Notes under the pieces: generated by a model
Told to the model about the DNA's origin: nothing
Seen by the model: the letters and a program-made list of their open reading frames with translations, nothing else
Databases searched by the model: none
Assembly (NCBI RefSeq): GCF_000214415.1
Contig: NC_015562.1
Coordinates: 248,001-312,000 of the forward strand
Reading direction: 5' to 3'
DNA: 64,000 nucleotides
DNA from: Methanotorris igneus Kol 5
Lineage (GTDB): Archaea > AGJL01 > Methanococci > Methanococcales > Methanococcaceae
Translations under genes and position numbers: made by a program
In this document: in pieces, positions 566 through 53,224 of the stretch
Numbering within the stretch: the first letter of the stretch is position 1
Layout: each line of letters begins with the position of its first letter

Positions 566-1741
566 ATGAAAGTTAATCATATTAAGAATAAAAAATATGT
601 AAACGAGAACATAAAAATATATTACATTGAAAATTTTTCAATTCCAGGAAATTCTGCTCACTCCTTACAAATAGAGAATACCATAAAGGCATTATCCAAA
701 ATATCAAATGTTACTTTAATATCAATTTCATTTAATACAGTTAAAAAATTAGATTTTTGCGAACATATTGTAATAAAATCACCAGATCTCTTTAAAAAAA
801 TTATTCCTTATAGAGTGTTTTATTTATTGTACAAAATTAAAGATTTAAAATTTGAAAAAAATGCATATCTATATACACGTTCTCCAATAATAGCATATTA
901 TCTTCACAAAAAATTTAAAAAGGTTATTGTTGAAATACATAACATTCCAAATTTAAAAGATAATATTTTTGAAAATCTCTTATTTCATATTCCTTTAAAT
1001 AATTTTTTTCTAAACAAGTTATATAATAGAGAAAATATTCATTTTGTTACAATTTCGAAGTCTTTAAAAGAAGATTTAATTAAACTCTTTAGTATTCCAG
1101 AAGAAAAAATAACCGTTCTTCCAGATGCAGTAGATCTAAACAAATTCAATATAAACATATCTAAAGAAGATGCAAGAGAGAAATTAAACCTTCCTAAAGA
1201 AAAAATAATTATAACCTACACTGGTAGCTTACAAGAATGGAAAGGATATAAAACTTTTTTAGAATCTTATAAATATTTAAAAAACAGAAAAAATGTAATT
1301 TATTTAATAGTTGGTGGGTCAGAAGACCAAATAAAAATTTTAAAAAAAGAATACGAAAATGAAAATATAATTTTTATTCCCTTTGTTGAACATTCGAAAA
1401 TACCATTATTTTTAAAAGTATCTGACATATTGGTTATTCCAAATTCCGCCAAATATGAAATTTCAGTTAAATACACCTCCCCTTTAAAACTCTTTGAATA
1501 TATGGCTTCCAGAAGGCCAATAATAGCGAGTGATTTGCCGAGTATTAGAGAAATAGTTAGTGAAGAAGAAGTTTTATTTTTCAGACCAGATAATGAAAAA
1601 GATTTAGCAGAAAAAATAGAGTATTTACTAAATAATAAAGATTTAATAGAAAAACTTGCTAAGAATGCTTTTGAGAAAGTAAAGAACTATACTTGGGAAA
1701 AGAGGGCTAAGAGGATTGTTGAGATTTTTGAGGTGGAATAA
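566..1741 (+). CDS. GT4-family glycosyltransferase
   Basis: A 391-residue GT-B glycosyltransferase of family GT4. The C-terminal nucleotide-sugar half is clear: ITYTGSLQEWKGYKTF opens the second Rossmann domain, and SPLKLFEYMASRRPIIASD contains the EX7E-like donor-binding segment. The N-terminal acceptor domain is less conserved. I take the ATG at 566 because GGATGAT lies just upstream; an in-frame ATG at 557 overlaps that ribosome binding site. The gene overlaps the next reading frame by one base. It probably adds a sugar to a lipid-linked precursor on the cytoplasmic face of the membrane; donor and acceptor are not identifiable. Confidence 0.85.
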   Translation: MKVNHIKNKKYVNENIKIYYIENFSIPGNSAHSLQIENTIKALSKISNVTLISISFNTVKKLDFCEHIVIKSPDLFKKIIPYRVFYLLYKIKDLKFEKNAYLYTRSPIIAYYLHKKFKKVIVEIHNIPNLKDNIFENLLFHIPLNNFFLNKLYNRENIHFVTISKSLKEDLIKLFSIPEEKITVLPDAVDLNKFNINISKEDAREKLNLPKEKIIITYTGSLQEWKGYKTFLESYKYLKNRKNVIYLIVGGSEDQIKILKKEYENENIIFIPFVEHSKIPLFLKVSDILVIPNSAKYEISVKYTSPLKLFEYMASRRPIIASDLPSIREIVSEEEVLFFRPDNEKDLAEKIEYLLNNKDLIEKLAKNAFEKVKNYTWEKRAKRIVEIFEVE

Positions 1742-2320
1742 TGAAAGATTTTTTATACTATTTAATAAGATATTCTAAGATATTCTCAAGGGAAAACTTA
1801 TACAAATTTTTAGACGATTCTATAAAAAAATATACGCTCATGTTCATTCAAGATTACCTATATAAATAGTGTGCTGTTATCGTGGCTTTGCGGGCTGGTG
1901 CATATAAAAAATTATCAATGGTAAAACTTGTTTGCTATAAGTAATGATGTTTGAAGATGAGCGAAAATATATTAAAAAAGATGAGATATATACAATTAAC
2001 ATTGGTACAGGGGGCGAAATAAGCAAATTTATAAAAGATAAAGGAATAAAAATATTGGAAATCGATATAGATGAAAAAAGAAGCCCTGATTTAGTTATGG
2101 ATATTCAAAATATGCATTTATTGAACGATAATTCAGTTGATGTTATCTTTTGCTTAGAAGTTTTAGAACATGTGCAAAATCCTTTTAAGGCGGTTGAGGA
2201 AATAAAGAGAGTACTTAAACCAGGAGGAATTTTTATTGGTTCGACACCTTTTGTTTTTCCAATACATGATGAACCAGATGATTATTTTAGATATACAAAG
2301 TATGGGATTCTAAATTTATT
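1741..2320 (+). pseudogene. Disrupted SAM methyltransferase, truncated by an IS element
   Basis: Two pieces look like one broken methyltransferase. The first, 1741-1869, encodes 42 residues beginning MKDFLYYLIRYSKIF and overlaps the stop of the glycosyltransferase gene. The second, from about 1944, carries the SAM fold: INIGTGGE (motif I), ILEIDIDEKRSPDLVMDI, VIFCLEVLEHVQNPF and LKPGGIFIGSTPF. Between them lies about 75 bp of atypical sequence with a G-rich stretch. The 3' end runs into the left inverted repeat of an IS element at 2321, so the last residues of that frame are transposon-derived. No continuation of the gene appears beyond the IS, which implies a deletion. That the first piece belongs to the same gene is an inference. 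Confidence 0.6.
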
Positions 2321-2473
2321 GTTGTATCCTGAAATTATTTCGTTGTTCATGTTCATGTTATCACCTCTTTATTACATTTGGTATTTTCGAAGTATACTTC
2401 GTATGGGGTTTTAAAACTTAATGAGCGGTGTGGTTTTATTTGGTTGTGCCATTCAACGAATTCTTTCAGGTTG

Positions 2474-2522
2474 TCGCTTGCGTAGCAAGCGAGCAACGAA
2501 AACCGAAGGTTTTCGTCTAATT
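2474..2522 (+). repeat. 49-bp double-hairpin insertion, copy A
   Basis: Identical over 49 bases to copy B at 2911-2959. It contains two hairpins in a row: CGCTTGC-GTA-GCAAGCG, then CGAAAACC-GAA-GGTTTTCG. It interrupts the C-terminal part of the transposase after the LDKFN codons and introduces a TAG stop. Confidence 0.9.
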
Positions 2523-2910
2523 GAACTTGTCCAGTCGATATTCAACTTCCCTATTTATTCTTTCAACTTTTCCTATCGTTTGAGGGTGTCTGATTGAGGT
2601 TTTTATATGCAAAATTTCCCTTTCCATTAGAAACTTCTGAAATCTCGAGATTCCACCCCTTGCAGGGACGAATTGGGTTCCATTGTCAGTTAATATCTTT
2701 TTCGGCGTTCCATGCTTTTCAAAGCATTCTTCTAAAGCCGAGATAACAACGTCGGTTGTAGCTTCTTCGTAAATTCCAGCGTGTAGGATGAATCTACTGT
2801 GATCATCAATTATTAACAGGAGATTATATCTAACCCCACCCACATCTACGATTTTAAAATCCATCTGCCACATTTCGTTAGGTTTTGAAGCGCTGAATCG
2901 CTTTGGCTTT

Positions 2911-2959
2911 TCGCTTGCGTAGCAAGCGAGCAACGAAAACCGAAGGTTTTCGTCTAATT
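2911..2959 (+). repeat. 49-bp double-hairpin insertion, copy B
   Basis: Second exact copy of the 49-bp unit, in the same orientation as copy A. It sits between the HTH and integrase parts of the transposase, after the GKKKRKN codons. The second hairpin, CGAAAACC-GAA-GGTTTTCG, resembles other short hairpins in this window (for example 10716-10740). Confidence 0.9.
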
Positions 2960-3507
2960 CTTTCTTTTCTTCTTTCCCTTCTGGATAAGGTCGAACTCCT
3001 TCAGTATAGTATATATACGATTATGAGGAATATGTATATTGTGCTTATTCTCTATGTATTTCTCTAAATGCACTGCACTGGTTCCTTTATACTCCTCAAC
3101 TGCTTTAAGAACTAAATCAATTTCTTCCTTCGATATTTTCTTTGGCTTTCTACCCCTACGCTTTATCTTTGGAATTTCTCCGGTCTCTCTATATTCTTTC
3201 CATATTTGCTGAACTCTACGGGGAGTTACTCCAACTTTCTTAGCTATACGGCTGGTTTCAAAGCCCTTTTCTTTCCATCTAATGATTTTCCTAATCTTTT
3301 TATCGTTAAGTTTTGCCCCCTTCATATTATTCTTATTATTAACATTCCTCTTTTTATTACCTACTGATGCGAAATAATTTCGGGATACCACAAAACGCTC
3401 TGTTAATTAACAATATATTTATATTAAATAATAAAAATTTAAGAAAAATTTTAATAAATTATTATAAAAAACATTTAATAGAAACAAATGAAAAAAATGC
3501 TGCACAT

Positions 3508-4770
3508 TTATTTGCAGTATTTAAGAAAAAATAAAAAAGTGATTATCATTACTAATAACCTATAAAATATTCTTGCTATAATAGCTCCTAATAATCCATA
3601 AAAATAAATTCCAAAGAAACTAAGTAATATTAAAATTAATGAAGAATATGTGTAAAATTTGTTAATTAGTCTTGCTTCTTTTTCTTTTATTAAATAATTA
3701 TATGGTAAAATATAAAGCATAGATAAAAAACTTAAATGAAACAACATACTTAACCATACATAGTCATAATACTTAGGATAAAACCATTTAAATATGAAAG
3801 GTGCTAATACCAAATAAACTACAATTAAAAAAACCACAACAACAAAAAACTTCTTTAAATGTTTCATTATGTCTCTTTTACTTAGGTCTTCGGAGGCAAT
3901 CTTAGGGAGAATCATTGGGATAAATGTTTTTGCTAGTATTTTAATTTGATTTGGAATTGAAGTTACAATTTTAAAAATAGCCAGTTCTTCAAAACTGAGA
4001 AAATAAGCAATTATCATACTATCGAAATTATTTGCAATATTTGATAGTGCTATAGATAGACTTATACTTTTACCAAATTTTATACTATCTTCATCAATAT
4101 TATTATTAGTTATAAATCTTTTGACATAAAACATGCTATAATAACCGTTAATAACAATTTGAATTAAAACTGTAATTATTGTTATCCAAAAAACACTTTC
4201 TGTAAAATATGCTGTCAAAACTATCAATATCGTTGAGATAATATTAAATAAAGAAGATAACTTAGTCAAGATATCAAATCTTTTTTTACCATTTAATAGA
4301 GTTGTATAAAATCCAGAGATGGCATAAAATGGGAATATGGATGATAATATTAAAAAAATTAATGATAAATGAAACCAACCATATAAATACTCATAGACAG
4401 AAAATCCCAACAAAAATAGACTTCCCAACCAACTCCATTTAAATATTTCCTTCAGAGCTCTAAAATATGTTCCTTCATAACCTTTTGCAACTGCCTGAAT
4501 AACTGCAACACTCATTCCCAGAAGTGCAAAAATAGTAGCAATACTTAAAATTGTCATTATAAAGCTATACTGCCCAAAAACTTCTTTTGATAGAAAATTT
4601 GCAAAAACGATACTTAAAATAAATCCCTTTAAAGTTCCAAAAAATTGCCCAATACTTAACCAAAACCCTCCCTTTATAAAGTAAGGGAGATCTAAACCCA
4701 CCTTTGAAGAATATCTTTTAGAGAATTTGTAAATTTTATCCTTTAAATTACTATATTGTTTTTTGAACAT
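3508..4770 (-). CDS. Polysaccharide flippase (Wzx/MATE-like)
   Basis: A 420-residue integral membrane protein of the oligosaccharide/lipid flippase group (MOP superfamily). It has about twelve hydrophobic helices with short charged loops. Near the N-terminus IKGGFWLSIGQFFGTLKGF is a typical opening for this family, followed by VFANFLSKEVFGQYSFIMT. Such proteins move lipid-linked oligosaccharides across the cytoplasmic membrane. It is followed at a 29-bp spacing by a GT4 glycosyltransferase on the same strand, so both probably belong to one surface-glycan locus, perhaps for S-layer glycosylation or a capsule. Start at 4770, preceded by a G-rich ribosome binding site. Substrate unknown. Confidence 0.85.
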   Translation of the reverse strand: MFKKQYSNLKDKIYKFSKRYSSKVGLDLPYFIKGGFWLSIGQFFGTLKGFILSIVFANFLSKEVFGQYSFIMTILSIATIFALLGMSVAVIQAVAKGYEGTYFRALKEIFKWSWLGSLFLLGFSVYEYLYGWFHLSLIFLILSSIFPFYAISGFYTTLLNGKKRFDILTKLSSLFNIISTILIVLTAYFTESVFWITIITVLIQIVINGYYSMFYVKRFITNNNIDEDSIKFGKSISLSIALSNIANNFDSMIIAYFLSFEELAIFKIVTSIPNQIKILAKTFIPMILPKIASEDLSKRDIMKHLKKFFVVVVFLIVVYLVLAPFIFKWFYPKYYDYVWLSMLFHLSFLSMLYILPYNYLIKEKEARLINKFYTYSSLILILLSFFGIYFYGLLGAIIARIFYRLLVMIITFLFFLKYCK

Positions 4771-6371: not shown

Positions 6372-6917
6372 CTAAATTTTATAGGTTTTTTCCTTTATTA
6401 CCTCAACACAGCCATATAAATCTTTTGCAATAAAATCAGCCTCAGTTTTTTCATTATCATATAAAATCCTTATTGTTTTACACCCAACACTCTTTCCACA
6501 AATTATATCACTCTCACTGTCTCCAATCATCCAACTCCTACTAAAGTCAATATTCCATTTTTCCTTGGCTTTTAAAAGCATGCCATTCTTTGGTTTTCTG
6601 CAGTTACAAGTCCCATCCAAATGAGGGCAATAAAAGATATCATCAATTTCAGGCAATAACTTAAGCATATAATCATGAACAACTTTTAAATCTTCCTCTG
6701 TCATAATGCCCTTAGCAATCCCTTGCTGATTGGTTATAACTATTAACAAATAGCCCATCTTTTTAAATTCAATTAACGCTTCTCTAACTTTTGGTAGTAA
6801 TTCAAACTCCTCTATTTTTTTAACGTAATCCCCAATTAATCTTTTATTGATAACCCCATCCCTATCAAGGAATATTGCCTTATTATTGTTCATAATTTTC
6901 CCATTATTTATTTTCAT
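6372..6917 (-). CDS. gmhB: D-glycero-manno-heptose-1,7-bisphosphate 7-phosphatase
   Basis: A HAD-superfamily phosphatase of 181 residues. The nucleophile motif is AIFLDRDGVINK (both Asp present), followed by VITNQQGIAKG (motif II, Thr) and the GmhB zinc loop CPHLDGTCNCRKPKNGML with its Cys/His ligands. Motif III/IV is SWMIGDSESDI. This is the histidinol-phosphatase/GmhB type that removes the C7 phosphate from heptose bisphosphate. Its ATG overlaps the stop of the preceding gene by four bases (ATGA), so translation is probably coupled; an internal ATG at 6893 is an alternative start. It is the last gene of the heptose operon. Confidence 0.88.
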   Translation of the reverse strand: MKINNGKIMNNNKAIFLDRDGVINKRLIGDYVKKIEEFELLPKVREALIEFKKMGYLLIVITNQQGIAKGIMTEEDLKVVHDYMLKLLPEIDDIFYCPHLDGTCNCRKPKNGMLLKAKEKWNIDFSRSWMIGDSESDIICGKSVGCKTIRILYDNEKTEADFIAKDLYGCVEVIKEKTYKI

Positions 6918-48511: not shown

Positions 48512-48595
48512 GCACTGCCGAGCGAAGCGAAGCGGTGCATCCCTTTTGATGAAATCGAACCGTAAGGTTCGAGCTGCAAAACCGATAGGTTTTGC
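48512..48595. repeat. Cluster of three hairpins
   Basis: Three hairpins in a row: 48512-48538 (GCACTGC...GCGGTGC, with a GAGCGAAGCGAAGC loop), 48555-48572 (TCGAACC-GTAA-GGTTCGA) and 48575-48595 (TGCAAAACC-GATA-GGTTTTGC). They resemble the 49-bp double-hairpin units at 2474 and 2911 and the stems in 27727-27775. They lie in the gap 3' of fttA. Confidence 0.7.
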
Positions 48596-48732
48596 TTAAC
48601 TTTTTTAAAGTTTCTTTTAGAGGTTTCATGGAGACGATAATCTGCTAATATGTTTTGATGGGAACTACGGTTTTTATTTTATTCCATTTTTTATTCTATG
48701 TTTTTATTATTCTATTTTGTTCTTATTTATCA

Positions 48733-52993: not shown

Positions 52994-53224
52994 TATAGTC
53001 GTGTGCGTTAGAAAATTTGGCAAAATCCCTTGGATTTTGCCGTATAGTTTGGAAATATACTATTGGTAAATTCTTAAAGATTTATCCCTTATTTCAAATT
53101 TTAAGGAAGAATAAAGATTATTAGAAATTCATTAATGCATAAATAAGTTTAAAAATCCACTGCAACCTTCGGTTGCAGGGAAGTTGAATAACTACGTTAT
53201 TCAACTATTTCGCACACGACTATA
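52994..53224. mobile_element. MITE-like inverted-repeat element with nested hairpins
   Basis: The longest full copy, 231 bp, with perfect 14-bp ends TATAGTCGTGTGCG and CGCACACGACTATA. It contains a hairpin at 53019-53044 and, near the right end, GCAACC-TTC-GGTTGC plus GTTGAATAAC...GTTATTCAAC (53163-53206). Its core matches the truncated copy at 27939-28132. It occupies the gap between proS and the next gene. Confidence 0.88.
53019..53044. repeat. Short mobile-type hairpin inside a MITE-like element
   Basis: GGCAAAATC-CCTTG-GATTTTGCC-GTA, located 12 bp after the left terminal repeat; the copy at 27939 has no hairpin at this place. Confidence 0.8.

Follow-up and report, generated by a model that had tools for sequence, protein, structure and literature searches.

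The window analysed here, a stretch of 64,000 nt from the genome of Methanotorris igneus Kol 5 (NC_015562.1, positions 248,001 to 312,000), contains an insertion sequence (IS) whose transposase gene (HTH, rve and rve_3 parts), on the minus strand, lies in three pieces (Table 1). The breaks are marked by two copies of one 49-nt sequence, at 2474-2522 and 2911-2959, a repetition matched by none of 100 shuffles; each copy folds into two perfect hairpins, of 19 nt and 21 nt, with GCA between them (folding z = −4.05). One of these dihairpin units, S1, separates the HTH part of the transposase from the rve core, and the other, S2, separates the rve core from the WHNQIKPHRSL tail; directly at each unit, a TAG comes into frame (AAG AAT TAG and TTC AAT TAG, respectively). 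The IS itself seems to be inserted in a methyltransferase-type gene, positions 1944-2414 and 3367-3534 looking like its two halves. Comparison with Rfam gave no match for the unit up to E = 1 in 1500-4000, and neither a viral scan nor blastn against plasmid and phage sequences gave a hit.

Table 1. Features of the insertion sequence and of dihairpin units in the window
Feature	Position	Strand	Remarks
IS, about 1.07 kb	2319..3393	-	ends common to five near-complete genome copies
IS terminal inverted repeats, 24 nt	2319-2342 / 3370-3393		92% complementary
Transposase N-terminal fragment	2954..3391	-	HTH_28/HTH_32
Transposase catalytic fragment	2517..2933	-	rve, Pfam PF00665
Transposase C-terminal fragment	2353..2496	-	rve_3
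Dihairpin unit S1, 47 bp	2911..2957	-	TTAG-H2-TGC-H1; empty site AAAGAA^AAAGCC, three IS copies
S1 hairpin H1	2911..2929	+	TCGCTTGC(gta)GCAAGCGA
S1 spacer	2930-2932		GCA
S1 hairpin H2	2933..2953	+	ACGAAAACC(gaa)GGTTTTCGT
S1 CTAA	2954-2957		lead TTAG on the minus strand
Dihairpin unit S2, 47 bp	2474..2520	-	identical to S1; empty site TTCAA^CAACC, three IS copies
S2 hairpin H1	2474..2492	+	
S2 spacer	2493-2495		GCA
S2 hairpin H2	2496..2516	+	
S2 CTAA	2517-2520		
Family-1 member, intergenic	48555..48599	-	TTAAGCAAAACC..AGCTCGAACC..; E 1.1e-13
Unit of second dihairpin family	53156..53206	+	TCCA[CTGCAACC(ttc)GGTTGCAG]GGA[AGTTGAATAAC(tac)GTTATTCAACT]

The genome is a single contig of 1,854,197 bp, which was examined by searches and in stretches covering about a third of it. 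Three copies of the IS, at 405, 1150 and 1651 kb, lack both units and present exact empty sites, and a second doubly loaded copy, 99% identical overall, lies at 156 kb. The transposase frame is uninterrupted in two of the three unit-free copies; in the 405-kb copy, an unrelated 16-bp tandem duplication shifts the frame (L021, near 1888). Alignment with the unit-free copies shows that the insert proper (TTAGACGAAAACCTTCGGTTTTCGTTGCTCGCTTGCTACGCAAGCGA) is 47 bp long, one A being ambiguous, and that the extra AA of the 49-bp identity is target sequence that by chance flanks both sites; there is no target duplication at either empty site beyond the ambiguous A.

A sequence-only reading of this DNA had reported the two identical repeats with two hairpins each, the splitting of the transposase at two sites with an in-frame TAG at each, and a protein that would read through in the absence of the units; the positions, the three pieces, the codons and the continuous joined translation all agree with this account. 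Its figure of 49 bp holds for the repeat identity and not for the insert, which is 47 bp when measured against the unit-free copies. The proposed alignment with intact IS copies yielded exact insertion boundaries at both sites, and these three copies, rather than carrying the units as native sequence, are without them. Two independent insertions had also been suggested; because the flanks of the S1 and S2 sites are unrelated, two separate events are indicated, and the identity of S1 and S2 points to a single source copy.

The units belong to a family with the layout TTAR-hairpin-WGC-hairpin, the second hairpin ending flush, and a length of about 42-50 bp; members occur singly or as head-to-tail dimers, and their stem sequences vary widely while pairing is retained. 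Hairpin pairs were found at 25 places in 464 kb, some of which was picked around known matches, compared to none in a Markov control; the majority of these pairs conform to the family layout. The genome-wide count that had been proposed as a check comes to about 62 family matches at E ≤ 1e-4 to a covariance model built from 14 units (75 at E ≤ 0.01); this count was used over the 146 matches at E ≤ 1, a set that includes many lone hairpins. Copies in the genome sit mostly in recurrent intergenic frameworks and, because many copies share few frameworks, independent insertions are far fewer than copies. Head-to-tail dimers in this genome (L055, L059, L064, L068 and others) are flush, and their two units differ in sequence, so that they are not simple tandem duplications. 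Among the units of all genomes, lead and spacer types are correlated (TTAG-TGC, TTAA/TTGA-AGC and TCAG-TAC), which may reflect subfamily descent with only three main types existing. A second family, represented in the window by the unit at 53156..53206, differs in sequence and, when its other strand is read, has the same lead-hairpin-spacer-hairpin layout.

Matches to the covariance model occur in 21 of 61 genomes: 20 of the 36 inside the order Methanococcales and one, weak, of the 25 outside it. The latter match (L117 of G046, E 1.8e-4) is taken as possibly due to chance. Several genomes of the host's own family contain many copies, and in the other family of the order, which includes Methanocaldococcus sp. 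SG1, 12 of 14 genomes have 2-22 matches each; 15-22 units were counted in G028, and genus g4 has almost none.

Insertion sites outside this IS include intergenic DNA, other transposons and host genes. Both filled and empty versions were found of the intergenic framework TATAGTTGTGTGCGTTAGAAGT^TGAA and of an IS605 left end (G001 and G029), and a family-2 unit of 50 bp lies precisely inside a family-1 unit (GATTT^CGCTGC). Other IS targets are an IS1595-like gene and an IS5-like gene, both named by eye, and IS605 ends. Degenerate intergenic repeats of about 80-100 bp that start with TATAGTYGTGTGCG carry units at a fixed place (genome positions 437174 in L054 and 145096 in L050, and many others). 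At 1470-1560 of L046 and 1440-1540 of L049, in a genome without a Y1 transposase, an IS605-like left end (the CACCGCCC hairpin) is accompanied by an extra hairpin; these ends are probably remnants or TnpB-only elements. Across 33 distinct contexts, target duplications of at least 4 nt were never seen (0/33) and one of 3 nt was seen once (1/33; expected 0.7). Apart from a weak preference for A at −1 of the left junction, there is no fixed target tetranucleotide.

Within host genes of relatives, units of 45 or 48 nt are found in frame, the genes being those for the porphobilinogen deaminase HemC, an IF-2B/MtnA-type enzyme, a CobN-type chelatase, an acylphosphatase, a HAD phosphatase and archaeal ATPases. 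Aligned in each case with 11 homologues, all without the insert, the HemC protein of G003 carries exactly 15 additional residues and the MtnA protein of G005 exactly 16; at the insert position, the G009 homologue of MtnA has a separate addition, three residues long. A HAD phosphatase gene in the window (6372-6917) is without the unit, and its homologue in G027 (L198, 2083-2643) has one at codon 3. The frame is broken only in the IS copies and in one host gene (L182). The selection for multiples of three among the unit lengths in host genes suggests that the in-gene insert is translated and not removed.

Removal of the unit from the transposase message by splicing or ribosomal bypassing, whereby the loaded IS would still make transposase, is accordingly very unlikely, even if the loaded IS has spread (see below) and its junctions, where a stop codon stands right at the boundary and a hairpin comes after it, recall T4 gene 60. 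The would-be take-off and landing codons mismatch at three coding sites (AAT/GAA, AAT/GAC and TGT/GAT), the phase of insertion differs between sites, almost every host-gene unit has a length divisible by three, a property of no use if units were removed, and intact IS copies are able to give transposase in trans. Splicing and bypassing were therefore both rejected, on the grounds of codons and length.

Remnants of the loaded IS, with 95-97% identity, are present in G031, a genome from another family of the order. One remnant (L108) has the unit at the first IS site, and another (L193) has a single unit between the left flank of the first site and the right flank of the second. The latter arrangement looks like the loss of a segment by recombination between two units, which, if so, implies that both units were once present in the IS of G031 too. 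At a further G031 locus (L192), the second IS site is preceded by an unrelated left flank that resembles the left flank of the unit-split gene in L182. Thus, the loaded IS has transposed and crossed between genera, its transposase having come, most simply, in trans from intact copies. Genome G001 contains a relative of the window IS (73-81% identical over the aligned pieces) with a 48-bp unit at a third site of the same gene, inverted relative to the window units (junction GAAG^TTGAATATCG).

These comparisons make it scarcely credible that the IS family carried the unit from the outset and that precise deletion then emptied three of its copies. Hairpins delete easily, and L193 appears to have lost the segment between its units, but the junctions are exact at two sites, two unit-free copies have a continuous transposase frame, units also occur at sites with no relation to these, some of them in host genes whose homologues are unit-free, and the related IS holds an inverted unit at a third site. 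The proposal of the sequence-only reading that the unit moves is upheld by its membership of a mobile family and by the exact empty sites, whereas the suggested preference for transposon DNA is not, as most copies are intergenic and others lie inside enzyme genes; given that ISs are multi-copy and dispensable, survivorship explains the IS hosts as well as preference does. A role as a parasite or silencer specific to IS elements is likewise unsupported, and the continued spread of the loaded IS argues against effective silencing.

The stems stay paired in 97.5% of cells; both sides of a pair changed 269 times, and G-U steps are very rare. As the alignment was fitted to the structure, and some of the covarying instances had been selected or aligned as hairpins, the pairing figure is biased upward. 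Of the loops, 62% have 3-4 nt and read TN(N)C (GN(N)A on the complementary strand), with C-G as the usual closing pair; in DNA, loops of the GNA and GNNA types show unusual stability. The scarcity of G-U intermediates and the loops of stable type favour a constraint that acts on hairpin DNA, or through hairpin-templated correction, rather than on RNA. Joint change of the arms without G-U intermediates is also what hairpin-templated correction predicts if short homology patches, template switching or repair, and not dedicated transposition, account for the spread of units, and the unit-to-unit recombination at L192 and L193 is compatible with such spread. We nevertheless regard this route as rather unlikely since both ends are exact at many unrelated sites, unlike the outcome of random patching.

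Another candidate for the mover is a Y1 (HUH) transposase of IS200/IS605 or RAYT type, for which the units would be miniature inverted-repeat transposable elements (MITEs). Features that recall the IS200/IS605 group are the pair of hairpins, the unduplicated target and the four-nucleotide end (TTAR; complement YTAA/TCAA), and the correlation of lead and spacer types fits as well. Yet this genome, with its about 62 copies, has no Y1_Tnp; of the 36 genomes in the order, just 5 have one, the unit-rich G003 is without, and a fixed target tetranucleotide is absent. This origin is therefore improbable; with no relation between the presence of a Y1 transposase and unit number across the order, its role as the mover is unsupported. 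Classical MITEs offer no closer fit: the TTAR and CGA ends are not inverted repeats of each other, target site duplication is absent from the 33 contexts and the exact empty sites, and none of the resident ISs examined has unit-like ends.

Taken together, we conclude with a probability of about 0.8 that these dihairpins are palindromic mobile elements, non-autonomous and belonging to an order-wide Methanococcales family, whose insertion is precise and leaves the target unduplicated. Direct observation supports four points: the exact insertion, the membership of a family, the in-frame insertions and the spread of the loaded IS. Weighing against this conclusion, no candidate mover was found, the Y1 transposase being absent here and, order-wide, not tracking unit number. 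In the scenario that we propose, an element of about 47 bp, consisting of two adjacent hairpins with the fixed ends 5'-TTAR ... CGA-3', would enter loosely A/T-rich sites with exact junctions and no duplication of the target, whether in a transposon, a host gene or the DNA between genes, and open-frame copies with lengths in multiples of three would persist in working enzymes, to which they add 15-16 codons. The two copies seen here would stem from one source and have entered one IS copy independently, after which the loaded IS would have been copied to a second locus and into another genus, plausibly by the transposase of intact copies acting in trans. At odds well short of even, the mobile form might be single-stranded or cruciform hairpin DNA, handled by a trans-acting enzyme or a repair process that leaves no duplication.

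A dedicated Methanococcales system that moves dihairpin DNA of 42-50 bp without duplication or a Y1 transposase is conceivable but doubtful. The recognition code of such a system would be the layout common to both families, namely, a 4-nt lead, a hairpin, a 3-nt spacer and a hairpin. If such a system exists, dihairpins of 42-50 bp would be among the shortest mobile elements.

Several known repeats resemble these units in part. Among the GC clusters and double-hairpin elements of fungal mitochondria, the GC clusters of yeast come closest to the units in size and behaviour, being mobile palindromes of 42-48 nt with merged and shuffled forms (PMC4478555). GC42 is flanked by AG direct repeats and is mitochondrial, whereas the present units are archaeal and have no comparable duplication. 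RUP of Streptococcus pneumoniae, a small non-autonomous element, lands in transposase genes of >6 IS families (PMC2229807), as the units do here, but has inverted-repeat ends, targets that contain TA and an IS630 that matches it, none of which were found for the present units. Rickettsia palindromic elements are hairpin repeats in frame in conserved protein genes (PMC10969869, PMC2229807) and are likened here by description to the in-frame insertions of the present family; they measure 105-150 bp, compared to archaeal units of 42-50 bp with two hairpins. REP/RAYT repeats are likewise short hairpin repeats, some of them modular, but here there is no Y1 transposase and no GTAG or CGTC tag, and the hairpins are in direct order.

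Palindromic repeats already known from M. jannaschii are reportedly about 100 bp long on average. The present family probably corresponds to these repeats, some of which are fused into protein genes (Suyama et al. 2005; PMC2229807), a likeness by description that consists in the same archaeal order and in copies within protein genes. Both marks of membership are found here: the repeat is present in Methanocaldococcus genomes, and in-gene copies keep the frame. The empty sites, the 47-bp dihairpin, the loading of an IS and the order-wide count come from the present analysis, and so do the exact boundaries, the absence of target duplication and the repeated landing in transposons.

The palindromes of M. 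jannaschii and the in-frame palindromes of Rickettsia were already known, and how elements as short as these move was not known before. Filled and empty sites, nested insertions and loaded transposons now make the boundaries, the choice of target and the search for the mover testable, and genes for enzymes such as HemC and MtnA carry 15-16 codons of mobile DNA.
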